A stretch of DNA of 64,000 nucleotides from Plebeiibacterium marinum (GTDB taxonomy: Bacteria > Bacteroidota > Bacteroidia > Bacteroidales > Marinilabiliaceae): contig NZ_JAPDPI010000005.1 in the NCBI RefSeq assembly GCF_026013615.1, positions 62,001-126,000 on the forward strand, written 5' to 3'. Shown in pieces: positions 6,671 through 56,450 of this stretch (positions within the stretch are counted from its first letter, which is position 1; every line of letters begins with the position of its first letter). A program made the position numbers and the translations under genes. The notes beneath the pieces were generated by a model that had not been told where the DNA came from, did not search any database, and saw nothing but the letters and a program-made list of their open reading frames with translations.

Positions 6671-9442
6671 TTACTTTTGATTTATCTCATTTAAATACTC
6701 CCTTGGTGTCTGTTTATAAATATCCTTAAAGCATTTAGAAAAGTAGGAAGGCGTACTAAAACCCGTTTTAAAAGAAGCTTCAGAAATGGTAAGGTTCTCC
6801 TCTGTCATTAATTTAATTGCTTTTTTTAGTCGTATAGATTTTATATAATCATTAGGGGATAGTTCTGTCATTTGTTTAATTTTTCGGTATAGTTGTACCC
6901 GCGACATGCCAATTTTTTCACCTAAGAACTCAACTCCGAATTGCTCGTTATTCAAATTTTCTAAAATTAAACTGTCAATATTTTTGATAAAACGATTGTC
7001 TAGTTTAGAGAGTCCTTTCCTCGGCATGTTAGCCCCTAGTTCTTTAAAGTATTTTCTTATATTGTTTTTGTTTTCAATGAGTTGGTGGATTTTAGCATAA
7101 AGATAATTTGCGCTAAATGGTTTTGTTATATAATCATCAGCTCCTTGTTCGATACCTTCAATAACTTGTTCTTCAGATGATTTTGCTGTAAGCATGATTA
7201 CCGGGATATGACAGGTTTCAATTTTTGATTTTATAATTTGGGTAAACTCAAGTCCATCCATTTCAGGCATCATAACATCGGTAATAATTAAATCTAACTC
7301 GTTTTCATCAATTAAATCTAGCGCATCTTTACCATTCCCGGCTTCTACAATAATATAATTCTGAATCAAACTTTGTTTAATATAATTTCTTAATTCTTCA
7401 TTATCTTCAACAAGCAATAAAACCGGTTTATTAATGTTCTCGTTAACAACCTTTTTTTCAGAATAGGAACCATTTATAGCAAGATCAGTTTCTGTTTTTA
7501 TAAGATCATCCATCAAGCCTTTTTCTGTTTGCGACTGGTTTATTTCATCTGGTTCAAAATGCTCATTCCCCAATTGAAGGAATATACTAAATCGTGTACC
7601 TTTACCTTTTTCACTCCATACTTCAATTGCTCCTTTATGAATTTCAATTAATCCCTTGGTTAATGAAAGGCCAATTCCTGTACCTTCTAAACGGTTTTCA
7701 CTTTGTTCTATTTGATAAAAACGATCAAAAATCCTATTCAAGTGTTCCTTTGATATTCCTCGGCCATTATCTTCAACAATAATTTTGGCGCACTCTTTTT
7801 CTTTATCACCAAATGTATATGTAACCTGGCTTAAGTGTATTTTTATAGTTCCTTCCTGATCCGTAAATTTCAGAGCATTCGATAACAGGTTAAAAAATAC
7901 TTTATCCATGTGACCTTTATCAAACCAAACCGGTATATTCTCAACATTAGTATTAAAGCTAAGGTTAATATTTTTGTTTGATGCCAGGCTGATAAAGTCA
8001 TTTTTAATAGATTGAAGAAATTCTACAAGATCATATTCACTAGCTAATAATCCCATTTTTTCCATCTCTATTTTCCTGAAATCCATCAACTGGTTTATTA
8101 GCTTTAACAGCCTTTTTGCATTTTTATGAATTAAATTTAGTCTCCACTTATTCTTCTCATTAAGGTCTGCATCATTTTCCATATCAAATACAGGACCTAA
8201 CAGAAGGGTTAAAGGAGTTCTGAACTCATGCGAAATATTCGTAAAAAATTTAAGTTTAGCCTTAGTCGCTTCATCTAATTGTTCGGATACTCGTTTTAGT
8301 TCAATATTCTGTTTTGAAATAGCCTCTTTTTGTCTCTCAAGGTTAAGGTTTGCAATATTCTTATGTCTGAAAGCTCTAAAAACTAATGCAGTAAGAAGGA
8401 TAACGATTAAAAGTAATGATACAGCAATTAACAACAATGTTTTTTGTGATTGATACTGTTCTTCCAATTTTTCAAGCATATTCTTTGACCTGTCAATATC
8501 TTGTTGGAGTGTCTCGATGTGATTATATTGAAGCCGGGTTGTTTTTACATTTGTTTTATCGATAACAACAGTAGGCAGAAGATTATTTTTATTAAAAGGT
8601 TTATTATGAAGTATCTTAGATGCGATTTGTATGGCTTCTTTTCCTCCTGTTGGGTAAATTATTGTTGCTGTTATAGTTCCGTTTTCAACCATTGAAATTC
8701 CTCCTTTGGGTGTTGCCAAACCATCAACACCCACTACAACTAAATCAGAATAATTTGTGTGTTTTTTGAGGACATCAACTGCGTCAGACGCAAGATCATC
8801 ATTGAAAGCAAATATTGCTTTGATATCCGGGTGTTGATTGAAACCTGAAGGCAAACTGTCAGCAAGAATATTTTCATTCCAAAAAGAGTGTATTTTGTAA
8901 ACATTTTTTAGTTTTGAGTAGTTGGCCAAGGCGTCATTGAAACCATTGCTTCTTTCTACGGCTGCAGACATTGTCATGGCTCCTTGTATTTCCAATACGT
9001 TACCTTTATAATCTAGTTTTCCACCTATATATTCAGCAGCGAATCTTCCTATTTCATAATTATCTCCACCAATATATGCAGTATAGTAATCGGAATCAAT
9101 TCTACGATCAATCAGAATAACAGGTATTCCTTTTTTATAAACTTTTTCAATTGCTTTTTGTACAGGATTTATTTCATTTGGAGAAACTATTAAAAGGTCA
9201 ATGTCTTGATTCAAAAGCTCATCAATTTGTTCTAATTGCGTTTTACTATCATCTAAAGCTTGTTTAATAATTATAGATAGATCGGGATGATATAGCAATT
9301 CTCTTTCCATCTCTGCTTCCATTTTTAGTCGCCAGTTATCTCTTTGTCCACATTGAGAAAAACCAATAGTGTATTTTTTACTTGCAAAGGAAAATGTGGA
9401 GATTAGTAAAATGAAAAATGAAAGCCAAAATCTGAATAACAT
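6671..9442 (-). CDS. Hybrid two-component sensor/regulator with periplasmic sugar-binding domain
   Basis: 923 residues in one chain: signal peptide 1-20; a type I periplasmic sugar-binding domain about 22-305 (DLLIVSPNEINP, PVILIDRRI, VVVGVDG, as in ribose/LacI-type binders); membrane segment about 335-358; histidine-kinase domain with phospho-His405 (FTNISHEFRTP) and an ATPase with EDNGRGIS and GTGIGLSL; receiver domain about 672-790 with phospho-Asp722 (ITDVMMPEMDG); C-terminal AraC-type DNA-binding domain about 820-920. This architecture, rather than the beta-propeller sensor of most such hybrids, matches the Bacteroides thetaiotaomicron fructan regulator BT1754, known to bind fructose. 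Next to GH32 genes it probably senses released fructose and activates the locus; ligand identity is inference. Confidence 0.93.
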   Translation of the reverse strand: MLFRFWLSFFILLISTFSFASKKYTIGFSQCGQRDNWRLKMEAEMERELLYHPDLSIIIKQALDDSKTQLEQIDELLNQDIDLLIVSPNEINPVQKAIEKVYKKGIPVILIDRRIDSDYYTAYIGGDNYEIGRFAAEYIGGKLDYKGNVLEIQGAMTMSAAVERSNGFNDALANYSKLKNVYKIHSFWNENILADSLPSGFNQHPDIKAIFAFNDDLASDAVDVLKKHTNYSDLVVVGVDGLATPKGGISMVENGTITATIIYPTGGKEAIQIASKILHNKPFNKNNLLPTVVIDKTNVKTTRLQYNHIETLQQDIDRSKNMLEKLEEQYQSQKTLLLIAVSLLLIVILLTALVFRAFRHKNIANLNLERQKEAISKQNIELKRVSEQLDEATKAKLKFFTNISHEFRTPLTLLLGPVFDMENDADLNEKNKWRLNLIHKNAKRLLKLINQLMDFRKIEMEKMGLLASEYDLVEFLQSIKNDFISLASNKNINLSFNTNVENIPVWFDKGHMDKVFFNLLSNALKFTDQEGTIKIHLSQVTYTFGDKEKECAKIIVEDNGRGISKEHLNRIFDRFYQIEQSENRLEGTGIGLSLTKGLIEIHKGAIEVWSEKGKGTRFSIFLQLGNEHFEPDEINQSQTEKGLMDDLIKTETDLAINGSYSEKKVVNENINKPVLLLVEDNEELRNYIKQSLIQNYIIVEAGNGKDALDLIDENELDLIITDVMMPEMDGLEFTQIIKSKIETCHIPVIMLTAKSSEEQVIEGIEQGADDYITKPFSANYLYAKIHQLIENKNNIRKYFKELGANMPRKGLSKLDNRFIKNIDSLILENLNNEQFGVEFLGEKIGMSRVQLYRKIKQMTELSPNDYIKSIRLKKAIKLMTEENLTISEASFKTGFSTPSYFSKCFKDIYKQTPREYLNEINQK

Positions 9443-9889
9443 GGAAAAAACTTTAAATAATATAGTTTATAAATATATAAAAACATTGTAAGTTTTTCCT
9501 TTATCAGTTTGATGATGTTTTAATAATTGGATTATACTTAATTAGTAATGTGGTTTTAGTTTTTGAACAAGGCAGCCTCTTGCATTCCGTTTGTGTTTCT
9601 GTAGGATCATTTAACGTTGCAGATATTATTGTATCGTCTACTTTTAATGTAATAGGAGTTGGCATTATATTCTTTTGGATTTTAACCTTGTTGAGTAATG
9701 TGAAACAAGCCATTATAGGTCTGTATTTAAACACGAGAATGATTATTGGCGGGTTCCATATGGCAATTAAAAGCAAATTTAAACAGATGAAAAGAGTTGT
9801 TGTTTGAGATTTAAAATATCAGAAACAACAACTCAAAAATAGGTAGATCATACCTATTCATTACGGGGGATTTTTATAAGGTGGATTTA
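9443..9889. other. Intergenic region without a supported gene
   Basis: The 447-bp gap between the hybrid sensor and the alcohol dehydrogenase has overlapping 85- and 90-codon open frames on opposite strands. Neither has a recognisable domain or convincing start context. It may be decayed coding sequence; I see no repeats or RNA gene in it. Confidence 0.4.
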
Positions 9890-43756: not shown

Positions 43757-44013
43757 TTGATAACCGTATCAGATGATATTTGTCAGGGAGGCTATTTTTA
43801 TAGTCTCCCTTTTTTGTTTTTGGGATATTTACTTCTACATTTAGTTTCCTAAAAAAATTAGGTAGTTCGAATTCATTCTACTCATAAAAAATATTGCGGG
43901 TGCTGGTTGTAATGCACGTGCCTTTTTTTGGAGCAATGCTTTGTTTTTTCTTGGGTAGAAATACGGGAATTTGACTTAGAGCATGAAGATTCATCAATTA
44001 ATTATTAGTTAAA
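43757..44013. other. Spacer between repeat array and pepT
   Basis: The 257-bp stretch contains a modest inverted repeat (around 43781-43812, GGGAGGCTA / TAGTCTCCC) followed by T, probably the proS terminator. Otherwise I see nothing in it. Confidence 0.4.
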
Positions 44014-45240
44014 ATGATAAATATAAAAGAGCGGTTTTTAAAATATGTTGGGATAGATACCCAATCGGATACCGATACCGGATTAACCCCTTCAACACCC
44101 GGGCAAATGTTGTTCTCGCAACAATTGGCAGAAGAGCTAAATTCAATAGGACTGGAAGATGTGGAGCTGGATGAAAATGGTTACTTAATGGCCACTATTC
44201 CTTCAAATGTTGAGGCCGAAGTACCTGTAATTGGATTTATTGCCCATGTGGATACCAGCCCTGATTTTAGTGGTAAGCATGTGAATCCGCAAATTATAGA
44301 AAATTACGACGGATCAGCCATAACCTTAAATCAGGAGGAAAATATTGTTCTTGCTCCCGATGAGTTCCCGGAATTGAGTAAATACGTAGGACAAACATTG
44401 ATAACTACCGATGGAACTACGCTTTTGGGTGCTGATGATAAGGCCGGGGTAGCCGAAATTGTTACTGCAGCAGAATATTTAATAAACCATCCGGAAATAA
44501 AACATGGTAAAATAAGAATTGGTTTTACACCTGATGAAGAGATTGGTGCGGGAGCAGATCATTTTGATGTTGAGAAGTTTGGGGCTGAATATGCCTATAC
44601 CATGGATGGGGGTGAGATTGGAGAGCTTGAATATGAAAATTTTAATGCGGCTATTGCAAAAATAACCGTTAATGGGAGGAATGTGCATCCTGGTTATGCA
44701 AAAAACAAAATGCGTAATTCAATTCGTATAGCCAACCAGGTTGTTACTATGTTGCCCCGTGTTGAAACACCTGAACATACCGAAGGGTACGAAGGTTTTT
44801 TCCATTTAATGTCGTTTGTTGGCGAGGTGGAAAAGAGTGAGTTGACCTATATAATCAGGGATTTCAGAAGAGACCGGTTTGAAGACCGGAAGAAGGAAAT
44901 TAAGCATATTGTTAGTAAAGTGAATAAAGAATATGGTTCCGGAACGGTTGAAATTGAGGTTAAAGACCAGTATTACAATATGCGCGAAAAGGTAGAACCT
45001 GTAAAATATATTGTAGATAATGCTGAAAAAGCAATGGAGTTGGTTGGGGTAAAACCAAATGTTCGTCCTATTAGAGGGGGAACTGATGGTTCGCGCCTTT
45101 CTTTTATGGGTTTGCCTACTCCTAATATTTTTGCCGGAGGTCATAATTTTCACGGACGTTTTGAATTTGTTCCACTTGAAAGCATGCAAAAAGCTGTTGA
45201 AGTCATTCTTAAAATCGTAGAGCTGGCGGCAGTAAAATAG
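44014..45240 (+). CDS. pepT: Peptidase T (tripeptide aminopeptidase)
   Basis: 408 residues, normal length. M20 family metallopeptidase: [15 protein letters not shown] (first Zn His and catalytic Asp), [16 protein letters not shown] (bridging Asp), [16 protein letters not shown] (catalytic Glu and Zn Glu), [17 protein letters not shown] (Zn Asp), [17 protein letters not shown] and [11 protein letters not shown] (last Zn His). It removes the N-terminal residue from tripeptides in the cytoplasm. It is single, flanked by heptad repeats on both sides. Confidence 0.96.
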
Positions 45241-45657
45241 TATCAGCTATTGATGAAAAATGTTCGCGTTATGTCCGGGGCAATAATAGATCTGCGCTGA
45301 CAAAAGCCTACAGGTACATATGATTTTATCACAAACTATATGCAGGTTGTTCACAAAACCCATGGTGTATAACCTGCATATTTGTCGAAAAACATAGCCT
45401 TATCCATTTTTGTTAACGATGAGTAACTGTATATTCTCGGTACTGTTTTAATATAATTATCTCCTTTAACAGTATAAAATACTTTGCATTCTGCTTTACC
45501 AGAAACAGGGTCATGGATTCCTTTTTCTGCTTCCCTGTCCGTTTGGATAGACGGGGTTTTTGTGTCAAGACATCGGGACTGATTCCTATTGTGGTGCAGT
45601 AAACTTTGTATTTAAGATGCCATTAAGATGGTATTTGTACCCATTTCATTCCATTTT

Positions 45658-45712
45658 AACCGAACAAGAACCGAACGAGAACCGAACGAGAACCGAAGGA
45701 GAACCGAACAAG
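45658..45712 (+). repeat. 11-bp tandem repeat, five copies
   Basis: AACCGAACAAG, AACCGAACGAG twice, AACCGAAGGAG, AACCGAACAAG: five contiguous units with at most two changes. Unlike the other tracts it has an 11-bp period, one helical turn. Confidence 0.88.
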
Positions 45713-45786
45713 CACAGACAACAATAGGACGCCAATCAGGAGACTTCCCTTATTGAATAGTTATGAACAATGAACAATGACATGAA

Positions 45787-45842
45787 TTGATCATTGATGA
45801 TTGATCATTGATGATTGATGATTGTTCATTGATCATTGTTTA
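45787..45842 (+). repeat. Eight-unit heptad tandem repeat (TTGATCA/TTGATGA)
   Basis: Units TTGATCA, TTGATGA, TTGATCA, TTGATGA, TTGATGA, TTGTTCA, TTGATCA, TTGTTTA; ATGAACA twice at 45763-45776 is the inverted form of the array at 43631. The two tracts bracket pepT. Confidence 0.85.
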
Positions 45843-46446
45843 TTGAAATTGTGTACCAAATAATTGTGATGTATGTTTGAAAGTATATGCTAATTAGTTG
45901 TTTATTAATGTATTCGACAATATTGGAGACTTTATAGTTTAAAGCAATATTATTTAAAATCATTTATTACCTTTGTTGGGCCTAAATACATGTAATGACG
46001 TTTTGACTATTACGATGTTCAATAACACCAAAAATAAAGAGCAACTATGGAGCTGATTGTATTAAAAAAACAAGCATACCTTTTTAACTGAAATTTTAAT
46101 AACCAAATATATACAAAACATATATATGTTCGTTAAATCAGTTAGTTGCAAGGGTGGTTGTCCTTGTATATAATATATATAAAGCTAATGGGTTTAGGGA
46201 AATGTTGTATGCAAGGCAAGAATAACAGCTTGGTTAGAAAAAATACTTTAAAATTGAGAACCAGTTATATAGCTTGTTGATTGAGCTTCAGAGCAAGAAA
46301 AAATTAGTTTTGCCACCGCGCTTCTGCCCTTCGGGACAGTTAAGAAAGCCAACGCACATTGCACACATTTGCAAACCCCACAAGCTAACGCACAAACCAA
46401 AATTTGCAAAAGAGTGCAATTATTTCCAACCCACGCTTGCTTTATG

Positions 46447-46454
46447 TATATTTG
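46447..46454 (+). promoter_or_regulatory. -7 promoter box of the dnd-like operon
   Basis: TATATTTG matches TAnnTTTG exactly, 32 bp before the first ATG (46487). No clear -33 element was found at the expected distance. Confidence 0.6.
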
Positions 46455-46486
46455 TGCAATTTTAAAATAATGTGGTATTTAATTGA

Positions 46487-47722
46487 ATGAAAAATAAAAG
46501 AGTAGAACATATTATAAATGAGATTGTAGACCAATATTGCTATGCTGATTCAACAGAAAAGCCTTGGATTATTGGTTTTAGTGGAGGAAAAGATTCTACT
46601 GTATTACTTACTTTAGTTTGGGAAGCACTTTTAAAAGTGCGTGAAATGCCAACACCATTTCAACTTAGAAGACCTGTTTATGTCGTTTGTAATGACACCC
46701 TTGTTGAAAATCCAATAGTCGTTGAGTACGTTGAGCGTGTACTTAATAAAATTAGCGTCGCAGCAAGAGAGCAGGATTTGCCAATTTTTGTAAAAAAAAC
46801 GATACCTAGATTGGAAGATTCATTTTGGGTAAACATTATTGGAAAAGGTTATCCCGTGCCTAACAATGCATTTCGTTGGTGCACAGACAAATTAAAAATA
46901 AAACCTACTTCACGATTCATAAAAGAGCAAGTAGCTGAAAACAATGAAGCAATTATTTTAATTGGAACTAGGTCTGCAGAAAGTGCAACTCGTGCAAAAT
47001 CAATAAAAAAGCACGAAATCAAAGGGAAAAGATTAACTAAACATCCAAATGAATCAAATACTTTTGTTTATGCACCTATAAAACATTTATTGACAGAGGA
47101 AGTTTGGGGGCTTATTAATAATCACCCATCTCCATGGAAAGCTGATAATTCAGAGCTTTTTAATATTTATGTAAATGCAAGTGCTGATGATTACGAGTGT
47201 CCAACAATGGTAACTAGTAAAGAACACTCTTCTTGTGGTCAGAGTCGATTTGGGTGTTGGACTTGTACGGTTGTGAAAGTTGATAAGTCAATGACAGCAT
47301 TAATTGGAAATGGATTTGAATGGTTAAAGCCGTTATTAACACTTAGGGATAAACTGGATAAAGAGAGAAATGATTTGAAAAATAGAATGCCTACAAGGCG
47401 AGATGGTTCTCCTGCTATTAATGACATGGGTACTTATTGGCCGCATTATAGGGCTTCTATACTAAAAAGAGTTCTTGAAACGCAAAAAGCTTTACAAGAA
47501 ACTAAACCTCACTTAGAACTTATTACTAATCAGGAGTTAATTGCAATTCAAGTAATATGGAACAGGGATTTGTATTTTGATAAAAAAGTTTCTCTAATTT
47601 ATAACGAAGTATTTAACATTAAGCTCGATATGAAAGATAAAGCAGAAAGACAAGAAAAAGAAAACAAACTTTTACTTGAAGCTTGTAAAAATGATGTATC
47701 ACTTATAAATTTTGCTGCATAA
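46487..47722 (+). CDS. dndC: DndC-like DNA sulfurtransferase (PP-loop ATPase with Fe-S cysteines)
   Basis: 411 residues. PP-loop ATP-pyrophosphatase FSGGKDSTVLL (31-41), PAPS-reductase-like GTRSAESATRA (160-170), and the DndC cysteine set: Cys132 (FRWCTDKLKIKP), Cys238, then Cys250, Cys257 and Cys260 in SSCGQSRFGCWTC. DndC activates the DNA backbone and passes sulfur to make phosphorothioate linkages; its cysteines hold a 4Fe-4S cluster. The protein is somewhat shorter than classical DndC. It leads a tight operon. No dndA, dndB or dndD is present; the desulfurase is often a general IscS elsewhere. Confident on family, less on activity. Confidence 0.88.
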   Translation: MKNKRVEHIINEIVDQYCYADSTEKPWIIGFSGGKDSTVLLTLVWEALLKVREMPTPFQLRRPVYVVCNDTLVENPIVVEYVERVLNKISVAAREQDLPIFVKKTIPRLEDSFWVNIIGKGYPVPNNAFRWCTDKLKIKPTSRFIKEQVAENNEAIILIGTRSAESATRAKSIKKHEIKGKRLTKHPNESNTFVYAPIKHLLTEEVWGLINNHPSPWKADNSELFNIYVNASADDYECPTMVTSKEHSSCGQSRFGCWTCTVVKVDKSMTALIGNGFEWLKPLLTLRDKLDKERNDLKNRMPTRRDGSPAINDMGTYWPHYRASILKRVLETQKALQETKPHLELITNQELIAIQVIWNRDLYFDKKVSLIYNEVFNIKLDMKDKAERQEKENKLLLEACKNDVSLINFAA

Positions 47723-47725
47723 GTT

Positions 47726-48691
47726 TTGGCAAAGAAAGAACTACCATATTATTTAAATGTTTTTGGGAAGCTTCGTAGAGACCATAAAAATGGAGGGGCT
47801 CCTCATAAACCTATTTTATTGATAAGTTTATGTGAAGCTATAGCTAATGGACTTATAAATAAAAAACAAATCTATATTTCACCTGAAATAGTAGGATTGT
47901 TTAAATCAAATTGGAATAGTTTAGTAGTTACAAATCACCAATGTTTATTTGCACTTCCATTTTACCATATGAATTCCGAACCATTTTGGAGATTAACTCC
48001 AAATAAAGGTTGTGAGTTATGGGTCAAATCAAAAAGTTCAATGCGAAGTTTGCAGAATTTGACTATCGCAATTAATTATGCAGAGATTGACCTTGACTTA
48101 TTTGAAATTCTTCAACAAAAAGAGAATAATGAAATAGTAAAGCAATTTATTTTGGATAAGTATTTTCCCGATACTAAAGGCAATTATGGAAAAAGTTCTT
48201 ATCTGACAGATATTGAAAGCCAAATTGTTAATGAGGATTCCGAAACTTATTCAACCAGAATTACCGAATTACAAAAGCAGTTAGAAGAAAATTCATATCA
48301 AGAAGAAATCTTTGTAAGGAGTAATGTTTTTAAAAGAGAAATTCCTAAAATTTATAATCAAACATGTTGCATTTCTGGTTTAAGGATTGATAGTATTATA
48401 AATATTTCAATGATAGATGCTTGTCATATAATTCCTTTTTCTGAAAGTAATAATGATACAATAACTAATGGTTTAGCATTATGTCCTAATTTGCATAGAG
48501 CTTTTGATAGAGGATTAATTTCAATAGATGAGAATTACCGAGTACTAATCTCAACAAAGTTTAGTGAAAATAAAACAGACTATTCACTAACTCAATTTCG
48601 TAGCAAACAAATTCAATTGCCGATAGAACAGCGGTTTTATCCTTCGTTAGAAAACATTCGTTGGCACAATATTAATACTTTTAAAGGATGA
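47726..48691 (+). CDS. HNH endonuclease with N-terminal phosphorothioate-DNA-binding (SBD-like) domain
   Basis: 321 residues from a TTG start three bases after dndC; no ATG lies before the conserved region. Residues 10-150 look like the sulfur-binding domain of ScoMcrA-type restriction enzymes: FGKLRRDHKNGGAPHKPILL, WNSLVVTNHQCLFALPFYHM, and FWRLTPNKG. A coiled linker about 165-195 follows. The C-terminal HNH domain has DACHIIPFSE (His234), TNGLALCPNLHRAFDRGLIS (Asn248, His257). Such enzymes cleave phosphorothioated DNA; here it is encoded with the modification genes. It overlaps the next gene by 4 bp (ATGA), so the two are translationally coupled. Confidence 0.78.
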   Translation: MAKKELPYYLNVFGKLRRDHKNGGAPHKPILLISLCEAIANGLINKKQIYISPEIVGLFKSNWNSLVVTNHQCLFALPFYHMNSEPFWRLTPNKGCELWVKSKSSMRSLQNLTIAINYAEIDLDLFEILQQKENNEIVKQFILDKYFPDTKGNYGKSSYLTDIESQIVNEDSETYSTRITELQKQLEENSYQEEIFVRSNVFKREIPKIYNQTCCISGLRIDSIINISMIDACHIIPFSESNNDTITNGLALCPNLHRAFDRGLISIDENYRVLISTKFSENKTDYSLTQFRSKQIQLPIEQRFYPSLENIRWHNINTFKG

Positions 48692-50229
48692 TATTAGGCA
48701 ATCAACATATCAACAAAAATGGTTTAGATTTAACAAAAAAGCTAAATTTAGGCTCAGAAAATCATATTTCAAGAATTGCATTAGCGTATTCTTTAAAAAC
48801 AAAGATTCGATTATCAATTACAAAAGACCTTAAAGACTCTAGGGGTAAGGCTTATAAAGACGATACTTTTTTTGGAAAGTATAAAAATTACTACATAGCC
48901 TTGATGTGCCAACACTACAACTTGCACAAGTCCAATACGGATATAGGAAAATATGTTAAGATGCATGTTGACCATGGTTTAGGCATGATTAATAAACTGT
49001 TTGAGGATAATGTTAACTATTCTGGTTTTGACTTTCTTATTGATAATATTGAAAGTGGAATTTCAGAGCTGGAAAGTTCAAACGTAAGTTTAGAGCATAT
49101 AAATAATTATAATCAGAATATTCAAAAAACACACTCATGTAATCCTTGGAAACTGCTTGTTGGTATAGATGATGAAGGCAAAGAAATCTATTTTACACCA
49201 AATGATACAGTTTTATATAGCAATGCACATATAGCAGTTGCTGGTCAATCGGGTTCTGGTAAAACGTATTTTGCACAAAGAATATTGGAACGAATTGTAG
49301 ATGCAAGTGACTATCAAACAAACTTCTTGTTCCTAGATTTTAAAGGAATTAGTGATTCTGAGAAAGATAGTGATGAGTTTAAAGGTTTCTTCAAATCAAC
49401 ACAGGCAGAGTTAATTGATACTCCAAACAAACCTTTTCCTGTTAATCCTTTATCGTTTATTGATAGTATCAATGAAAACAATAAAATATTAGGTATAAAT
49501 AAATTTGTTGATATTATAACTGATTATGCAGGTCTTGGAAAAGTTCAAGTTCAGCAACTCAAAGAAGCAACAAAGAGGGCTTTTGATAATCATCATGGTG
49601 GAAAATATCCTACGATTCAGGAAATCTTGAGTAATGTTTATGATATTGCAGGAGAAAAGCCATCAACATTGACGGAAATTCTTATTGGATTAAGTGAAAT
49701 TAATCTTTTCGATACAAATAATGATGGGGCATTTTTAAATAAAAATTACTACTTAAGTCTTTCTGGTGATTTGAGTAGAAATGTAAGGTTTACAGCAGCT
49801 TTTTTAATTATCAATTATATCTATAATACCTTTATGAATATGGAAAATTCAGAGGTGAAGAATGAAATTAAAGGAATGCGATATGTTTTGTTAATTGATG
49901 AAGCTCATAATGTTTTTAAAGATAAAAAGTCAAAAGAAATTTTAGAAAAAATACTTAGAGAGATTCGCTCCAAAGGTGTTTCAGTTGTTTTATTATCACA
50001 AGGTATTGAGGAGTTTAATCAACCTTCGTTTGATTTTTCAAGTATGTGTGAAACAGCCTTTCTTATGAATATAAAATCTAAAAATGACTTGAAAATTATT
50101 AATAAATTCCTTGGATTTAGTGATAAAGAAAGCTCAAAAGTAGCTCGTTCTATGGAGCAAATTCAAAACAGACAAGCCATTTCAAATATTAAAGAGTTTG
50201 AAAGAGCGAGAATATTTAATGTTTGCTAA
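48688..50229 (+). CDS. DndE domain fused to HerA/FtsK-type ATPase
   Basis: 513 residues in two parts. Residues about 10-105 match DndE: LTKKLNLGSENHISRIALAY, KDSRGKAYKDDTFFGKYKNY, YIALMCQHYNLH and DIGKYVKMHVDHGL. From about 155 is a P-loop ATPase: Walker A AGQSGSGKTYFAQ (186-193 core), a FLDFKGISDSEK segment, Walker B VLLIDEAHNVF (Asp404-Glu405), and SVVLLSQGIEEF resembling sensor motifs of HerA/VirB4-type motors. DndE is normally a separate small DNA-binding protein and the ATPase role belongs to the SMC-like DndD. A DNA motor in the same chain may replace DndD (inference). Confidence 0.82.
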   Translation: MILGNQHINKNGLDLTKKLNLGSENHISRIALAYSLKTKIRLSITKDLKDSRGKAYKDDTFFGKYKNYYIALMCQHYNLHKSNTDIGKYVKMHVDHGLGMINKLFEDNVNYSGFDFLIDNIESGISELESSNVSLEHINNYNQNIQKTHSCNPWKLLVGIDDEGKEIYFTPNDTVLYSNAHIAVAGQSGSGKTYFAQRILERIVDASDYQTNFLFLDFKGISDSEKDSDEFKGFFKSTQAELIDTPNKPFPVNPLSFIDSINENNKILGINKFVDIITDYAGLGKVQVQQLKEATKRAFDNHHGGKYPTIQEILSNVYDIAGEKPSTLTEILIGLSEINLFDTNNDGAFLNKNYYLSLSGDLSRNVRFTAAFLIINYIYNTFMNMENSEVKNEIKGMRYVLLIDEAHNVFKDKKSKEILEKILREIRSKGVSVVLLSQGIEEFNQPSFDFSSMCETAFLMNIKSKNDLKIINKFLGFSDKESSKVARSMEQIQNRQAISNIKEFERARIFNVC

Positions 50230-50231
50230 TA

Positions 50232-51554
50232 ATGGCAGAAAGTCAAAATATAGAATGGAAAGAAAGCTGGCGCGACGAATACCTAAAATGGATTTGTGGT
50301 TTTGCTAATGCTCAGGGGGGTAAGATATTCATCGGTAAAAATGACAAAGGCGAAATTGTTGGGATTGACAACGCAGAAAAGCTACTAGAAGACATTCCTA
50401 ATAAGGTGAGAGATATTCTTGGGATTTTAGTAGATGTTAATTTGGCAGAGTCTGAGGGTGGCAATTATCTTGAAATTATCGTTGAAGCACAACCCTTCCC
50501 AGTTAACTATAAAGGACAATATCATTATAGAAGTGGAAGTACAAAACAAGAGCTAAAAGGTGCTGCTTTAGATAAATTCATGCTTGAAAAAAAAGGCAAG
50601 AAATGGGATGGTGTGCCAGTGCCAAATGTGTCAGTCGATGATTTAAAAAGTGAAACGTTTGAGTTTTTCAAGAAAAGGGCAATAGTTAGCAAGAGAATTG
50701 ATGAAAGTATATTAACCGAGGATAATTTTAGCATCCTTGAAAATTTGAGATTAACTGAAAAACCATATCTAAAACGTGCATCCCTATTGCTTTTTCACCC
50801 TGACCCTGAAAAATATTTTACTGGAGCATTTATAAAAATCGGTTTTTTTCAGACTGATACGGAATTAATATTTCAAGACGAAGTAAAAGGAAATTTATTT
50901 GAACAAGTAGAAAAGACAATTGAAATACTCTTTACAAAATACATAAAAGCAATAATTTCTTACGAAGGAATTCATAGAGTTGAAACCTACGAATATCCAA
51001 GAGATGCAGTGCGTGAAGCAATATTAAATGCCCTTGCCCATAAAGACTACTCAATGGGTGTTCCAATTCAAATTAGTGTTTATGAAGATAAACTTATGAT
51101 TTGGAATTATGGACAATTACCTGAAGATTGGACAGTTGAAAATTTAATGCAAAAACATTCATCAATTCCATATAATCCTGATATTGCAAATGCTTTTTTT
51201 AGAGCTGGTCATGTAGAATCTTGGGGAAGGGGAACAATCAAAATCATTGAGCAATGTGCTGAACATGGTTTGCAAAAACCAGAATTTGAAAACAATGGCA
51301 AAGATTTTTGGGTTGTTTTCAGAAAGGATATTTATAACGAAAAGACTTTAAAACAACTTGGTATAAATGAACGCCAAATTAATGCTGTTTTGTATGCAAA
51401 AGAACATGGTGCAGTAACTAATTCCATTTATCAGGAAATAAATACTATAGGTAAAACTGTTGCTACATCAGAATTAAACAAGATTGTTGAAAAAGGATTA
51501 TTGAAGCAAGCAGGAAGTAAAGGTAGAGGTTCAAAATATGTAATTGACCGATAA
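50232..51554 (+). CDS. AlbA_2/HATPase/winged-helix protein
   Basis: Start at ATG 50232, two bases after the previous stop; 440 residues. N-terminal AlbA_2 (Schlafen-like) domain about 5-115: QNIEWKESWRDEYLKWICGF, FANAQGGKIFIGKND, YYRSGSTKQE-like YHYRSGSTKQELKG. The middle has the RecG-like HATPase_c_4 region: YPRDAVREAILNALAHKDYS, MIWNYGQLPEDWT, ESWGRGTIKIIEQCAEHG. The C-terminal about 70 residues form a winged helix (NAVLYAKEHGAVTNSIYQEI). These proteins occur widely in defence islands and as regulators. Its role in the operon is unknown: regulator, effector or passenger. Confidence 0.85.
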   Translation: MAESQNIEWKESWRDEYLKWICGFANAQGGKIFIGKNDKGEIVGIDNAEKLLEDIPNKVRDILGILVDVNLAESEGGNYLEIIVEAQPFPVNYKGQYHYRSGSTKQELKGAALDKFMLEKKGKKWDGVPVPNVSVDDLKSETFEFFKKRAIVSKRIDESILTEDNFSILENLRLTEKPYLKRASLLLFHPDPEKYFTGAFIKIGFFQTDTELIFQDEVKGNLFEQVEKTIEILFTKYIKAIISYEGIHRVETYEYPRDAVREAILNALAHKDYSMGVPIQISVYEDKLMIWNYGQLPEDWTVENLMQKHSSIPYNPDIANAFFRAGHVESWGRGTIKIIEQCAEHGLQKPEFENNGKDFWVVFRKDIYNEKTLKQLGINERQINAVLYAKEHGAVTNSIYQEINTIGKTVATSELNKIVEKGLLKQAGSKGRGSKYVIDR

Positions 51555-52017
51555 TTGGCCGAATTGGCCGTTTGGATTTAAAATGGTTTGAATCCCAGAG
51601 AATTACAGGAGTGGCCTACCTCACAGCCAAGCACATTTGTAATTCGCACGAGCCATCACGCGTCCAAAAATTATAAAAGAGCTTGTCTGTCTGCTAACGC
51701 TTTTTGTCCTACCCTAAAAACTAATTTTTTCGGGAACAGCCGTGCTTTGATTGAGTGGATTAGTGTTTGAGAAATATTGATAATTAACTGATAATGAATA
51801 AAGCCCAGCATACAACACGCCATCATAATACATTGCGCGTTAGGAAATTTTGGTTGGTGAAAATTCGGAATTTAAGTAAGGATAATTAACTATATCGCAG
51901 TTACGGAAAAGCGCAACGCATCATATGGCCAATCCGTTGTAGAACATTGGGGCAGTGCAAATTGACAGTCCAATCAATAAAAATATCCCAAATTGGGAAA
52001 ATAACAATTAATTTTCA
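51555..52017. other. Spacer between dnd-like operon and higBA
   Basis: About 460 bp with no supported gene. A short direct repeat (AATTGGCCG twice) follows the last gene. The segment around 51805-51850, from CCCAGCATACAACACGCC to GCGCGTTAGG, resembles 3' cassette remnants often found after toxin-antitoxin and defence genes in this phylum. No integrase is seen. Confidence 0.35.
51986..51998. promoter_or_regulatory. Palindromic operator candidate of higBA
   Basis: TCCCAAATTGGGA is two 6-bp arms around a single base. It lies 20 bp upstream of the -7 box, where it would cover the -33 region, so binding would block transcription. A likely site for HigA autorepression. Confidence 0.55.
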
Positions 52018-52025
52018 TAAATTTG
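52018..52025 (+). promoter_or_regulatory. -7 box of higBA, four bases before the ATG
   Basis: TAAATTTG, a full TAnnTTTG match; the ATG of higB starts at 52030. Transcription from this box would start at or next to the start codon. Confidence 0.65.
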
Positions 52026-52029
52026 CATT

Positions 52030-52329
52030 ATGAGAATTATTGCTTTTAGAACTATAAGAGAGTTTTTCGAGAAACCTGAATACTCAGATTCTGAGGTTTC
52101 ATTACGAGCTTGGTATCATGATACTAAAACAGCTGATTGGAAGAATTCAAATGAATTGAAAGGACAATATAAAAACGCAAGTATTGTCGGAGACGGAAGA
52201 GTAGTTTTTAATATTAAAGGCAATGATTATAGATTAGTAGTTGCTATTGATTATGAATTTCAGGTGATTTTTGTAAGGTTTATCGGAACTCATAAACAGT
52301 ATGATAAAATTGATGCTAAAACGATTTGA
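52030..52329 (+). CDS. higB: HigB-family toxin (mRNA interferase)
   Basis: 99 residues of the HigB_toxin family: MRIIAFRTIREFFEKPEYSD, LRAWYHDTKTADWKN, NASIVGDGRVVFNIKGNDYR, VIFVRFIGTHKQYDKIDA. The final RFIGTHxxYDxID block is highly typical. These proteins belong to the RelE-like fold and cleave mRNA on ribosomes. The gene precedes its antitoxin, the usual HigBA order, with two bases between the genes. Confidence 0.93.
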   Translation: MRIIAFRTIREFFEKPEYSDSEVSLRAWYHDTKTADWKNSNELKGQYKNASIVGDGRVVFNIKGNDYRLVVAIDYEFQVIFVRFIGTHKQYDKIDAKTI

Positions 52330-52331
52330 TT

Positions 52332-52682
52332 ATGGAAATAAGACCAATTAAAACAGAACAAGATTATAATTCTGCTATAAACAGGATTGAAGATTTGTGG
52401 GGAGCAAAAAAAGATACTCCAGATGGTGACGAGCTTGATTTATTGGTGACCTTAGTTGAGTCATACGAGATGAAACATTATCCCATTGCACCACCAGATC
52501 CGATTGATGCTATTAAATTTCGAATGGAGCAGATGGGTATGACTAAAGCTGACATGGTAAAATATCTTGGTAGTCAGAGTAGAGTCAGCGAGATTCTTAA
52601 TAGAAAAAGAAGTTTGACTTTGGGTATGATTAAATCATTATACAAAGGATTAAAAATTCCAGCAGAGATTTTATTAGCTTGA
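52332..52682 (+). CDS. higA: HigA-family antitoxin
   Basis: 116 residues starting at ATG 52332. An N-terminal helical part (IKTEQDYNSAINRIEDLW, DELDLLVTLVESYE) and a C-terminal XRE-type helix-turn-helix (MGMTKADMVKYLGSQSRVSE, ILNRKRSLTLGMIKSLYKGL). It binds and neutralises HigB and probably represses the operon at the palindrome 51986-51998. A hairpin follows the gene. Confidence 0.93.
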   Translation: MEIRPIKTEQDYNSAINRIEDLWGAKKDTPDGDELDLLVTLVESYEMKHYPIAPPDPIDAIKFRMEQMGMTKADMVKYLGSQSRVSEILNRKRSLTLGMIKSLYKGLKIPAEILLA

Positions 52683-52713
52683 TTGATTGAAATATCAACG
52701 TGCTAATAACTAA

Positions 52714-52748
52714 GCGTCCTGCCTGTTTGTACAACAGCGGCAGGATGC
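52714..52748. other. Hairpin after higA (terminator or attC-like)
   Basis: GCGTCCTGCC / GGCAGGATGC stem (one G-T) extended by TGTT/AACA around a 5-nt loop, with a 2-nt bulge. There is no T run, so it is a poor terminator. GTTGAAT follows three bases later, fitting the GTTRRRY core of integron attC sites, but the opposite core is weak. Confidence 0.4.
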
Positions 52749-52760
52749 TGTGTTGAATAA

Positions 52761-52823
52761 CTTAGCCTCTAATGTAGGGTTGCTTGCATGCCCTACACAT
52801 TGTAGGGTTTGTTGAACTAAACA
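52761..52823 (+). repeat. 63-bp direct repeat, copy 1
   Basis: Begins CTTAGCCTCT and ends GTTGAACTAAACA; four differences from copy 2 at 54040-54102. Contains a 7-bp stem TGTAGGG/CCCTACA. With copy 2 it brackets the Fic gene. Confidence 0.85.
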
Positions 52824-53226
52824 TTATTCCAGCAACATTTACCAAACTTCAGTTCCAATACTTGAGCTCTGGAAAGCTTAATGGTTTTAACCGGTACATT
52901 TAGATTTTTACATAGAAGTTCAGGACTGTTGGTTTTGTTCTTAAACCATAAACCGCATATATCAAATTGCAATTTACGCACCAGATAATAAAACATATTG
53001 ATTGAGGAGCCGGATACGGGAATTCTGTATGTCCGGATCTGCGGTGGGGGTAGGTGGAGCAATCCATCATTCTATCCCGATTTGGTTTCATGCAATCGTT
53101 CCAGACCAAAAACAGACTTTTAATAGAAACAGATAAAATATTTACAACTACGGAAATTGACACTTTTTCTTTTTTTTGAATGTGTTGGAATCCCACATGA
53201 AACAAGGTGTTGACTCAGAAATTACC
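52824..53226. other. Spacer before the fic gene
   Basis: About 400 bp without a supported gene; two minus-strand open frames of 81 and 101 codons have no recognisable domains and unlikely composition. I see no further structure except the fic promoter at the end. Confidence 0.4.
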
Positions 53227-53234
53227 TATATTTG
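53227..53234 (+). promoter_or_regulatory. -7 box of the fic gene
   Basis: TATATTTG matches the consensus; it sits inside a small inverted repeat ACCTA/TAGGT that could be an operator. 19 bp before the ATG. Confidence 0.55.
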
Positions 53235-53253
53235 TAGGTAAACTATTTTTGAG

Positions 53254-54015
53254 ATGAGAGTAACAGAAAGGAAATATTTAAACGCATATTTACAGTCAAC
53301 AGGTAAAGAAATTTCAACTTTAATTGAAGAATTTGATTTTTCAGAAGATAAAGGAGGATTTGAATATTTAACCAAATCATCAGCTGTTTATTCGTCTAAT
53401 ATTGAGGGAAATAGTATTGACTTGAATTCATATATGAATTATGAGTTGAATAAAGATAAATTCAAAGTTGGCAAGGAGATAGTGGAAATTGAAGATTTGA
53501 TTGAAGCTTATGAATTTGCACAAAATAATAGTTTAACAGAATCTAATTTACTTCAATGTCACAAGATATTTTCAGAGACCTTATTAATAAAAAGTAAAAG
53601 AGGTAAATACCGTATTGAGCAAGTCGGTGTTTTCGGAAAGACAGGATTAGCATATATGGCTGTAGAACCAGATTTTGTTGAGAAAGAGATGAAGGTGTTT
53701 TTTGCAGGTATTGAAGAATTAATATCACAAGAACTATCAAAAGAAGAGGTTTTTTATTTTGCATCATTAATTCATTTGAGATTTGCACATATTCATCCAT
53801 TTCGTGATGGTAATGGTCGTGCAGCGAGATTATTGGAGAAGTGGTTCATTACAGAAAAATTAGGGCGTGATTTCTGGAAGATTCCATCTGAGGAGAATTA
53901 TAAAGTAAATCAGGCAAAGTATTACGAGACAATAAATTTAGGGGTGAATTTTTATGAATTAAACTATGATAGGTGTTTAGGATTTTTGGAGATGTTGCCG
54001 ATGTGTCTCAAATAG
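53254..54015 (+). CDS. Fic-domain AMP-transferase
   Basis: 253 residues. The Fic motif is complete: HPFRDGNGRAAR with catalytic His181. The N-terminal inhibitory motif SSNIEG (Ser47 to Gly52, Glu51) is the S/T-x3-E-G/N pattern of class II Fic proteins, so the enzyme should be self-inhibited until released. Such proteins AMPylate target proteins such as GyrB/ParE or unknown partners. It is a single gene flanked by 63-bp direct repeats in an island with HigBA and defence genes, with no antitoxin of the class I type nearby. Confidence 0.93.
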   Translation: MRVTERKYLNAYLQSTGKEISTLIEEFDFSEDKGGFEYLTKSSAVYSSNIEGNSIDLNSYMNYELNKDKFKVGKEIVEIEDLIEAYEFAQNNSLTESNLLQCHKIFSETLLIKSKRGKYRIEQVGVFGKTGLAYMAVEPDFVEKEMKVFFAGIEELISQELSKEEVFYFASLIHLRFAHIHPFRDGNGRAARLLEKWFITEKLGRDFWKIPSEENYKVNQAKYYETINLGVNFYELNYDRCLGFLEMLPMCLK

Positions 54016-54039
54016 AAAAAAAAGCACGAAAAACTAACG

Positions 54040-54102
54040 CTTAGCCTCTAAAGTAGGGTTGCTTGCATACCTTACACATTGGAGGGTTTGTTGAACTAAA
54101 CA
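54040..54102 (+). repeat. 63-bp direct repeat, copy 2
   Basis: CTTAGCCTCT to GTTGAACTAAACA, same orientation as copy 1 at 52761-52823; 25 bp after the fic stop codon. Confidence 0.85.
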
Positions 54103-54239
54103 CAAAACATAAAAGATACCTGCAAAATACATAAATACGAAAAGTTAAAACAACAAATTAAGCGTTTAAAATCATTACTACGCTGGTGGTATCAATACTA
54201 TGGCATACGAGGAAACTTTATGAGCATAAAACGCATTAC

Positions 54240-55184
54240 ATGGTAAAAGCATTATTGATTATAAGATTAAAACAAATTTATCGAGAATTAATTGGAATTG
54301 GTCTTATAAGACTGGTTTTTTTGATTGCTCTAATCGGTTTTTTGGGATTATTCCTTTATACAAATACCTCGGATAAAACAACTTCTCAATTAGTGAGTAT
54401 TGGACTTTTATTTCTGATTTCTATACTCCATTCTCGACGAGGTGATAAATTGTTTCTTAAAAGCCATTTCTCAAATTATAAATTGTTTTTATTTTCAGAG
54501 TATGCAGTTATTTCTTCTCCAATTCTCTTACTACTAGTTGTTCATAGACAATGGGGTTCACTAATTTATTTTTTAAGCTTGATACTAATTGTGCATCTTG
54601 ATTTAAAACCTAAATATTCAAGTTTAAATACAAAGCTACAGTCGTTAATCCCTTCTGATTCGTTCGAATGGAAAGCAGGAGTAAGAAAGCAATTTTTTAT
54701 AATCGTGCCTGTTTGGATTATTTCTGCAGTTACTTCATTTTTTATAGGAAGTGTTCCGATAGCAATTTTTATACTTGGAATTTCAATATTCAGTTTTTAT
54801 GAAAAAGGAGAGACGTATCAAATGATATTATCTTATGAATTAAAGGCAAAAAAATTCTTATTCTTAAAAGTAAAACGTCAGTTTCAACTCTTTTCAATTA
54901 TAACAATTCCTTTGATTGGACTTTTTTTGATATTTAATTTCGACAGATGGTATATTCCACTATCCGAATTTTTAATTTTTTGCTTTATTCATATTTATGT
55001 GATTATGACTAAATATGCTTTTTTTGAACCAAATAAAAAATCGGCAGCAGCACAGACGATGGGTGGCATAGGTGTATTTGGAGGCATTATTCCTGTATTT
55101 CTACCAGTAGTTTGGATTTTAACTGTTTGGTTTTATATAAAATCAATTAACAACTTGAATTTTTACTTAAATGATTACAATTAG
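54240..55184 (+). CDS. ABC-2-type transporter membrane protein
   Basis: The start at 54240 (MVKALLIIRLKQIYREL) gives 314 residues; an 18-codon upstream extension is possible but unlikely. About eight or nine hydrophobic segments are visible: LIRLVFLIALIGFLGLFLY, LVSIGLLFLISIL, YAVISSPILLLLVV, IIVPVWIISAVTSFF, SIFSFY, FSIITIPLIGLFLIF, FLIFCFIHIYVIM and the last IPVFLPVVWILTVWFY. It overlaps the ATPase gene by 14 bp, so they form one exporter. Family is uncharacterised; cargo unknown. Confidence 0.78.
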   Translation: MVKALLIIRLKQIYRELIGIGLIRLVFLIALIGFLGLFLYTNTSDKTTSQLVSIGLLFLISILHSRRGDKLFLKSHFSNYKLFLFSEYAVISSPILLLLVVHRQWGSLIYFLSLILIVHLDLKPKYSSLNTKLQSLIPSDSFEWKAGVRKQFFIIVPVWIISAVTSFFIGSVPIAIFILGISIFSFYEKGETYQMILSYELKAKKFLFLKVKRQFQLFSIITIPLIGLFLIFNFDRWYIPLSEFLIFCFIHIYVIMTKYAFFEPNKKSAAAQTMGGIGVFGGIIPVFLPVVWILTVWFYIKSINNLNFYLNDYN

Positions 55185-55866
55185 TAACCTAACAATATCA
55201 TATAAAAAAGACCAGGATGTTATTAATTCACTGAACCTTTCATTGGATACATCATTAATACATGGCATAGTAGGATTAAATGGTGCAGGCAAAACAACAT
55301 TACTAAATTCATTGTACGGATTAAAGAAACCAAATGAAGGAATTATACAAGTTGATAACAAAAAAATTAATAAAAAGGAAGTCTCTTATTTGGTAACAGA
55401 AAATTTTTTTTATTCAAACATTACAGGTAGAGAATATTTGAGCCTTTTTAAAAATAAAGCATTCGAAACAGAAAAATGGAATAAGCTATTCTCTTTGCCT
55501 TTGGATTCTGTGGTCGATGGATATTCAACAGGCATGAAAAAGAAATTAGCATTGTTGGGTATTTTAAAACAAGACAAACCTTTAATGATACTGGATGAAC
55601 CATTTAATGGATTGGATATTGAGACTTGTAGGATTATTAGAATGGTTTTGCTGCGATTAAAAGAAAAGAACAAAACAATAATTATCACTTCTCATATAAT
55701 TGAAACCCTAACCAACCTATGTGATTATATTCATTATCTGGATAAAGGAAAAATAAAATACAGCAAAGACAAAGAAGGATTCTCGGAATTTGAAAGAGAG
55801 GTATTTGAAAAAATTGAACACGAAAATATTGAACTCATTAATGAACTAATAGAATATAGCACATAA
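55171..55866 (+). CDS. ABC transporter ATP-binding protein
   Basis: 231 residues. Walker A GLNGAGKTTLLNSLYGL, signature region YSTGMKKKLALLG (a variant of LSGGQ), Walker B PLMILDEPFNGLD, and switch His in IIITSHIIETL. It is the ATPase of the exporter formed with the upstream membrane protein, with which it overlaps. Such pairs export small peptides, antibiotics or lipids. Nothing nearby gives the substrate. Confidence 0.93.
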   Translation: MITISNLTISYKKDQDVINSLNLSLDTSLIHGIVGLNGAGKTTLLNSLYGLKKPNEGIIQVDNKKINKKEVSYLVTENFFYSNITGREYLSLFKNKAFETEKWNKLFSLPLDSVVDGYSTGMKKKLALLGILKQDKPLMILDEPFNGLDIETCRIIRMVLLRLKEKNKTIIITSHIIETLTNLCDYIHYLDKGKIKYSKDKEGFSEFEREVFEKIEHENIELINELIEYST

Positions 55867-55956
55867 AACACGGCATAAAGCCATGGTAGCCACTCGGTTT
55901 GATAGATTGTGATATTTTTAGAATTTTCTGCTGTTTTGACTCTGGTCGTATTCAGA

Positions 55957-56450
55957 TTAATGATTACCCATGCCCAGCTCTTTCATAACATTGTCTTTTC
56001 TCATTCGTGAAATAGGTACAGAAGCATTGTCTCTCAATAGGAGGTAGCCTCCATCGCGCTTTTCGAAAGAGCAAACCATCTTTTTATTTACCAGATGGGA
56101 TTGGTGCACCCTGATAAAACCTTCTTCTGAAAGCAATTCCTCAAAATCTTTTAAGGTTCGGGAAATAAGTGCTGTTTGTCCATTTTGAAGGTAAACGTTG
56201 GTGTAATTGTTCTCGCCCTTGCATCTGATTATATCGCAAGTCTTTACAAACAAAATTCTTTCAAGGGATGGCAGGGCGATCGTTTTGTATTCAGTCTTTT
56301 TATTATTTTCCAGAGTTTCCCATTGTTGTTTCAAATCGTTTTTCTTGTTTTTGATTTTATCCAATATTCTTCCTGCTGATTGTTGTAACTCAAGTATGTC
56401 TACTGGTTTAAGTAGGTAATCGAAGGCACAAAAGCGAATGGCTATACGTA
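55957..56450 (-). pseudogene. 5'-truncated LytTR response regulator
   Basis: An open frame of 199 codons (to 56556) is present, but only about residue 38 onward is homologous: the receiver's last piece (AIRFCAFDYLLKPVD), a helical linker, and a complete LytTR DNA-binding domain (IRCKGENNYTNVYLQNGQTA, SEEGFIRVHQSHLVNKKMV, VPISRMRKD). The phospho-acceptor Asp and the first two thirds of the receiver are missing, and the first 37 codons read through non-homologous sequence. So the gene has lost its 5' end near 56450. No histidine kinase is next to it. A translated DNA-binding fragment is possible. Confidence 0.75.

Follow-up and report, generated by a model that had tools for sequence, protein, structure and literature searches.

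A dnd operon of Plebeiibacterium marinum in which a gene for a predicted SBD-HNH nuclease replaces dndD

The four-gene locus of Plebeiibacterium marinum

The 64,000-nucleotide stretch of Plebeiibacterium marinum DNA analysed here (RefSeq assembly GCF_026013615.1, contig NZ_JAPDPI010000005.1, positions 62,001 to 126,000 of the forward strand; hereafter the window) is part of a 161-kb contig in a 5.6-Mb genome that is 98% complete. It carries a four-gene operon related to the dnd operons that write phosphorothioate (PT) into DNA. An earlier note, made from the sequence alone, had read this operon as a compact PT restriction-modification system, in which DndC and a DndE-motor protein would modify the DNA and a nuclease combining a sulfur-binding domain (SBD) with an HNH domain would restrict it. 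The four open reading frames (ORFs) lie exactly where that note placed them, all co-directional and separated by +3, -4 and +2 bp (Table 1). Comparison with related operons led us to a different reading. The SBD-HNH gene occupies the dndD position, several dnd loci underwent this replacement separately, and we consider it likely that the locus is a PT-writing operon of the DndE:HerA type that took part in a recurrent conversion from PT writer to PT cutter.

The replacement is visible in the DNA itself. A blastn comparison of the window with locus L029 (loci are cited by our own numbers), its nearest dndD-bearing relative, found homology at 46347-47696 and 48727-51244 and none between. With the same flanks and clean breaks, the window has 1,030 bp with the HNH gene and L029 has 2,273 bp with dndD. 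As the earlier note had seen, dndD is missing: DndD has no match within window positions 44000-56000, and its two matches in the whole genome, at 26.0 and 21.4 bits, fall below the cut-off of 245.85. Because DndD was searched for and not found, the locus in its present form does not belong to the Dnd PT-modification systems.

The dndC product was recognized as DndC by PADLOC (448.5 bits) and NCBIfam (TIGR03183, 393.4 bits; cut-off 290.4). The PP-loop named in the earlier note was confirmed, but the sequence contains eight cysteines rather than five. The protein has 411 aa against about 445 in the nearest relative, its C-terminus being truncated by about 35 aa; the DNA homology to L029 stops near codon 403, after which the gene has a new 3' end. 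This dndC is probably a leftover of the writer operon. The fusion protein (513 aa) has a DndE region at residues 15-103 (PF08870, 62.5 bits against a threshold of 25; TIGR03184, 36.5 bits, under its cut-off of 71.85) and, as proposed earlier, a P-loop motor, whose top PADLOC match is the C-terminus of DndH; its solved relatives are DptH (7es4) and HerA (8xau). The DndE:HerA query has a single match in this genome. The fusion is 91% identical to that of L029 from residue 14 onward; the swap altered its first ~13 codons. The domains of the fourth protein are also those given in the earlier note. Its gene has an ATG start and an alternative in-frame TTG start at 50223. The protein is 58% identical to its L029 counterpart, which follows an intact dndCDE; hence this gene was not part of the swap. 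It may perhaps encode a regulator, in a position often occupied by a DndB-like gene.

Table 1. Features of the operon and of its replaced segment, in window positions
Feature	Position	Strand	Basis
dndC, sulfurtransferase of PT-writing operon	46487..47722	+	PADLOC/NCBIfam; PP-loop SGGKDST at 31-37; truncation vs L029
SBD-HNH nuclease gene in dndD's place	47726..48691	+	SBD by sequence and predicted fold; HNH_2; conserved residues
dndE:herA fusion, native to operon	48688..50229	+	Pfam DndE and HerA-type matches
AlbA_2/HATPase_c_4 protein, operon tail gene	50232..51554	+	Pfam SLFN_AlbA_2 and HATPase_c_4
Replaced segment	47697..48726	+	blastn window vs L029: no DNA homology there

dndD and the nuclease gene in related operons

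Using five aligned DndE:HerA proteins as the query, we scanned species-representative genomes and kept the best 80 of 259 relatives, mostly from Bacteroidota, so that the frequencies given here hold for the close clade. Contig ends cut eight of these loci, leaving 72 assessable. The genes usually run dndC-dndD-dndE:herA, with a variable tail behind them that often encodes a 150-200-aa protein and a DndB-like one. Full-length dndD is found in 65 of the 72 loci (60 as a single ORF, three frameshifted and two split by a stop). Among the four nearest relatives, L029-L032 (DndE:HerA 80-91% identical), all of which carry dndD, it is a single ORF in L029, L031 and L032 and is split in two ORFs in L030. 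The N-terminal ATPase head of DndD is lost in the other seven (L049, L051, L057, L079, L103, L105 and L106), and every one of them has a relative of the window HNH protein, 42-59% identical, between dndC and dndE:herA. An HNH gene thus occupies the slot in 7/7 loci without the DndD head and in 0/65 with full-length DndD (Fisher p 5e-9 for a stricter table that counts as an exception L062, where a distant HNH, 29-36% identical, lies on the opposite strand about 7 kb off a full-length dndD). What is left of dndD starts at residue 537 in L049, 535 in L051, 608 in L079, 372 in L103, 289 in L105 and 595 in L106, and L057 retains none. The contigs of L030 and L076 are labelled as Woesearchaeota and Alcanivoracaceae metagenome-assembled genomes; their dnd loci nest among those of Bacteroidota, which points to misbinning or recent transfer.

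A second sample, independent of DndE:HerA, was obtained by searching for DndC in 395 genomes of the class, 18 of which contain it, at 19 places. The window, one of these places, has the HNH gene; 15 have a DndD-like gene adjoining dndC, and none of these 15 carries an HNH gene in the slot. Two of the DndD-like genes are only 22-25% identical and one locus is frameshifted throughout; at least three of the 15 (L017, L205 and L208) recur from the first set (as L061, L040 and L066), an identity judged from contigs of equal length. The remaining three places are remote DndC-like genes with neither DndD nor HNH. dndD and SBD-HNH are mutually exclusive at this slot.

These counts bear directly on the restriction-modification system proposed earlier, in which DndC and DndE:HerA would write PT without DndD and the SBD-HNH protein would restrict unmarked or wrongly marked DNA. 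The operon is tightly packed, and in the window dndC and dndE:herA have open frames without clear signs of relaxed selection, which is in keeping with it. However, DndD accompanies this type of DndE:HerA in 65 of 72 loci, it was essential for PT in Streptomyces lividans, where dndA, C, D and E were each required (PMC2653506), and HNH relatives occur alone, with no dnd genes nearby. Moreover, the window, L057 and L105 have a truncated dndC, and the dndC of L106 is broken. A dndD gene as the rule beside homologous operons, the four nearest included, was the very outcome that the earlier note had named as contradicting its proposal. We also rejected the idea that the HerA motor substitutes for DndD, since the two proteins occur together in the usual form of the operon. 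The window operon is probably not a compact new restriction-modification system, and PT writing of this kind seems hardly probable at all.

Several observations indicate that dndD was replaced more than once. In a DndE:HerA tree of 80 proteins (the window and 79 loci; L043, which has no usable ORF, was left out), the eight HNH rows need eight changes, all forced by supported branches, and their scatter over the tips fits recent events. The nearest dndD-bearing relatives include L046 for L049, L050/L048 for L051, L077 for L079, L087 for L103 and L108, whose dndD has a stop, for L106. L049 and L046 come from Flavobacterium piscinae and F. salilacus, and L051 and L050 from Chryseobacterium candidae and C. 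indologenes AA5. Compared with their sisters, the HNH loci have homologous flanks and a replaced middle, with breakpoints that differ in most loci. The dndC stop and the HNH start are ≤5 bp apart in the window, L049, L051, L079, L103 and L105, and dndC ends at different codons in these six. The HNH tree requires 3-4 changes for the slot proteins. Five of them fall in one clade, two others lie with a solo HNH, and that of the window groups with solo HNHs with modest support (83/81). Solo rows of this tree were chosen by the letters HKP, and five of 40 dropped out.

L049 and L051 are the loci with common breakpoints. The dndC of L051 is closer to that of L049 (dS 0.76) than to that of L050 (1.14), and its dndD remnant is closer to that of L050 (dS 0.34) than to that of L049 (1.29). 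Given this mosaic, one of the two swaps may have been passed on by recombination in the flanking DNA. It is conceivable, though we think it unlikely, that such loci are switchable, with populations carrying dndD and SBD-HNH alleles that swap repeatedly by recombination in the flanking dnd genes and with DndE:HerA as a shared DNA-handling platform for either.

Directly upstream of one intact dndC-dndD-dndE:herA (L017:3662-3853 = L061:6236-6427) we noted a 64-residue SBD fragment, 58% identical to the HNH protein of genome G150; it may be something like the reverse of the nuclease takeover.

The nuclease and its distribution

The earlier note had seen an HNH nuclease with an SBD-like N-terminus, and both parts were recovered. 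The 321-aa protein matches Pfam HNH_2 at residues 214-268 (49 bits against a threshold of 21), and its N-terminal half matches 8h0l, the SBD of Hga solved with PT-DNA, with E 1e-10 by sequence and 2e-15 by profile. It was modeled with AlphaFold2 at a mean pLDDT of 94.2; by Foldseek against the PDB, 8h0l is closest to the model (E 1e-9, TM 0.89 over the target), followed by modification-dependent HNH enzymes and the structures of ScoMcrA and SprMcrA. Residues H27, K28 and P78, as well as H234, N248 and H257 of the HNH domain, are kept in all eight slot proteins. From the motif and the 8h0l alignment, made without superposition, the first three appear to correspond to H116, R117 and P165 of ScoMcrA, which have roles in the sulfur pocket, R117 being a lysine in most homologues (PMC6224610). 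The window protein has a leucine at the position of Y164, which is variable among SBDs (PMC6224610). Because HKP served as the selector, conservation of H27, K28 and P29 in the solo rows exists by construction; the eight slot rows were not selected in this way, and P78 was not a criterion. The protein is thus predicted, by sequence and modeled fold, to be an SBD-HNH of the PT-dependent type IV restriction kind; such an enzyme should conflict with PT writing instead of acting alongside it.

Full DndD was not found in any of the eight genomes with an HNH-slot locus, the window's included: the other seven, genomes of unstated completeness, yielded remnants in four and nothing at E ≤ 1e-15 in three. 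DndD exceeds its cut-off in all seven sister genomes, one copy having an internal stop. Collections of one genome per species were used throughout. HNH relatives are present in 22 of 395 genomes of a phylum sample (E ≤ 1e-30) and in 26 of 395 of a class sample (E ≤ 1e-60), the window's own counted in both. Among the other HNH genomes tested, DndE was found in 1/21 of the phylum sample, the one being G150, and in 0/18 of the class sample, the latter search giving no match in any genome although the same family had matched in the former. Since DndE:HerA matches are rare anyway (9/395 genomes), a genome-wide exclusion of HNH and DndE is uninformative and was set aside as evidence.

Outside DndE:HerA operons, 27 of 32 HNH neighbourhoods have no dndC piece beside the nuclease gene. 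In the other five the HNH lies directly behind a dndC stub of 26-63 codons (weak in L170, E 0.007), with no dndE:herA within 4 kb and no dndD beyond chance-level hits, which suggests that the nuclease can capture the beginning of a dnd operon and persist after the remainder is lost. Weak dndD-like matches behind the solo HNHs L167, L170 and L171 (E 0.001-0.013) were treated as chance.

The solo genes also bear on the possibility that the nuclease and DndE:HerA form a new working pair, in which the motor would load the nuclease onto DNA or move it along and dndC would be a relic. DndE:HerA is open in all eight HNH-slot loci although dndC or dndD decay, and in the window the HNH gene overlaps dndE:herA by 4 bp. 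Yet solo HNHs of the sister clade exist without DndE:HerA, a dndD remnant separates the two genes in six of the eight loci, and recency alone accounts for the intactness of DndE:HerA. We regard such a pair as quite unlikely.

Carriage by phage or plasmid was considered and set aside. The DndE:HerA fusion has no relative in viral contigs, where one HNH relative was found. Phage records gave three matches to the fusion and eight to the HNH, none covering 80% of the query; among plasmid records the fusion scored 0/8 and the HNH 17/137, all <60% identical. Just downstream of the window operon lie a HigB-like toxin gene and its HTH partner (52030-52682; PADLOC PD-Lambda-2_A, 133.9 bits, and PD-Lambda-2_B over positions 1-118 of 402), followed by a gene for a Fic protein (53254-54015).

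From PT writing to PT cutting: a proposed route and known systems

An SBD nuclease and dnd cannot coexist, according to work on S. lividans in which the survivors examined had lost a 93-kb island carrying dnd (PMC3009677). Likewise, EcoWI blocks PT plasmids, and its authors predicted avoidance of dnd systems with the same specificity (PMC7461809). Combining these findings, we propose that a PT-writing cell would survive the arrival of an SBD-HNH gene only if its writer were broken, and that insertion into dndC-dndD would break the writer and at once give the nuclease an expressed position. Without DndD, published work implies that no PT would be written. Judging from its fold and pocket residues, the nuclease would recognise the sulfur of incoming PT-DNA, such as phages or plasmids from PT-writing donors, and its HNH domain would cut near the recognised site; cutting would be safe for the host only because its own PT writing would have ceased. 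The outcome would be a type IV-like restriction locus against PT-DNA, with DndC, DndE:HerA and the AlbA_2 protein most likely as leftovers of the writer, which would still read intact because the swap was recent.

The same slot might instead be a mere hotspot for defence-gene insertion, with the HNH as one cargo and PT loss as a by-product. In L057, a 701-aa DEAD-box helicase, taken here as HamB, and HamA (PF08878) lie between the truncated dndC and the HNH gene (L057:1022-4098); together they form a Hachiman-like pair in the same slot. Elements resembling the Flavo-1 RNA (RF01705) form the right end of the inserts in L049 (9373-9449), in L051 at the same place and in L103 (8909-8985), where they directly abut the dndD remnant, with two different dndD positions represented; those scored by Rfam, in L049 and L103, are both under the gathering score. 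Against a mere hotspot, the 7/7 replacements among 72 loci all involve a single nuclease family, with the gene oriented along the operon. Five of the slot HNHs belong to a supported clade although their loci are scattered, and this is precisely the gene to be expected from the published incompatibility between SBD nucleases and dnd. We consider it very improbable.

Other points weigh against a conversion of the operon from writer to cutter. The Hachiman-like genes and the Flavo-1-like elements indicate that the slot may partly be a hotspot. The dndC and dndE:herA genes and the dndD remnants are mostly open, with no clear relaxed selection by dN/dS except in L105, where the HNH gene itself is cut by a stop; open writer genes fit recent swaps but also continued use. 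For NF045808, the NCBIfam family of PT-DNA restriction, the window nuclease reaches 100.5 bits, below the cut-off of 180. In G150, an HNH relative with an open frame (38% identical) coexists with a canonical dndCDE-FGH elsewhere in the genome, so exclusion is not absolute in the wider HNH family. Finally, SBD-containing HNH genes have been reported in Dnd loci of 698 taxa (PMC10853773), and other SBD-HNH types may therefore tolerate PT.

Two candidate arguments were dropped. dN/dS was not retained as proof of function loss, most HNH loci showing no clear relaxation. An apparent decay of the L103 dndD remnant (36 vs 5 changes, residues 300-539) was discarded, since the L103-L087 DNA alignment over 9000-9560 has no indel and the low identity is thus a register artefact of the protein query.

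Taken together, our results suggest an answer to why some PT-dependent nucleases adjoin dnd genes despite their expected incompatibility: in eight separate cases the nuclease occupies the former position of a writer gene. A previous study left its dnd-associated cases (<3.6%) unresolved, with a mutated dnd cluster as one listed possibility (PMC7461809). It also follows that a match to dndC, or to dndC and dndE, is by itself no proof that PT is made. A replacement of dndD by SBD-HNH, like the exact four-gene composition that the earlier note did not know from any described system, was not found in the literature searched, which lacked most subscription papers and all bioRxiv preprints.

The Tdp-type compact PT systems can be likened to the window operon: they combine a DndC-like enzyme with a HerA-like motor in a small set of genes and are not known to include DndD. 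The same DndE:HerA architecture is known from PT-modification loci (Rakesh et al. 2024, PMC10853773), where a DndD-related ATPase, absent in the window, adjoins it; the sections of that study covered here do not mention a dndD-to-HNH replacement. The window protein has the domain order of EcoWI, SprMcrA and SBD-Hga and is predicted to have their SBD fold and H/K/P pocket (PMC7461809, PMC6224610). However, SBD-HNH enzymes are mostly found apart from dnd (PMC7461809), whereas here the gene lies inside a dnd operon in dndD's place. In Neisseria, drg likewise places a modification-dependent nuclease gene in the position of a modification gene, dam, with loss of the modification (PMC4269198); it involves methyl-adenine and a DpnI-like fold instead of PT and SBD-HNH, and the replacement of dndD is by comparison recurrent across a phylum, with eight changes on the tree. 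The dpnI/dpnII locus of Streptococcus pneumoniae, finally, also has mutually exclusive contents at one place, either modification with restriction or a nuclease for modified DNA (PMC2751782). There the modification is GATC methylation and whole cassettes are exchanged, whereas here it is backbone sulfur and the single writer gene dndD is replaced, which leaves the other writer genes behind. The concept of complementary restriction alleles would thereby extend from base methylation to the sulfur of the DNA backbone, which is testable with pairs of close strains.

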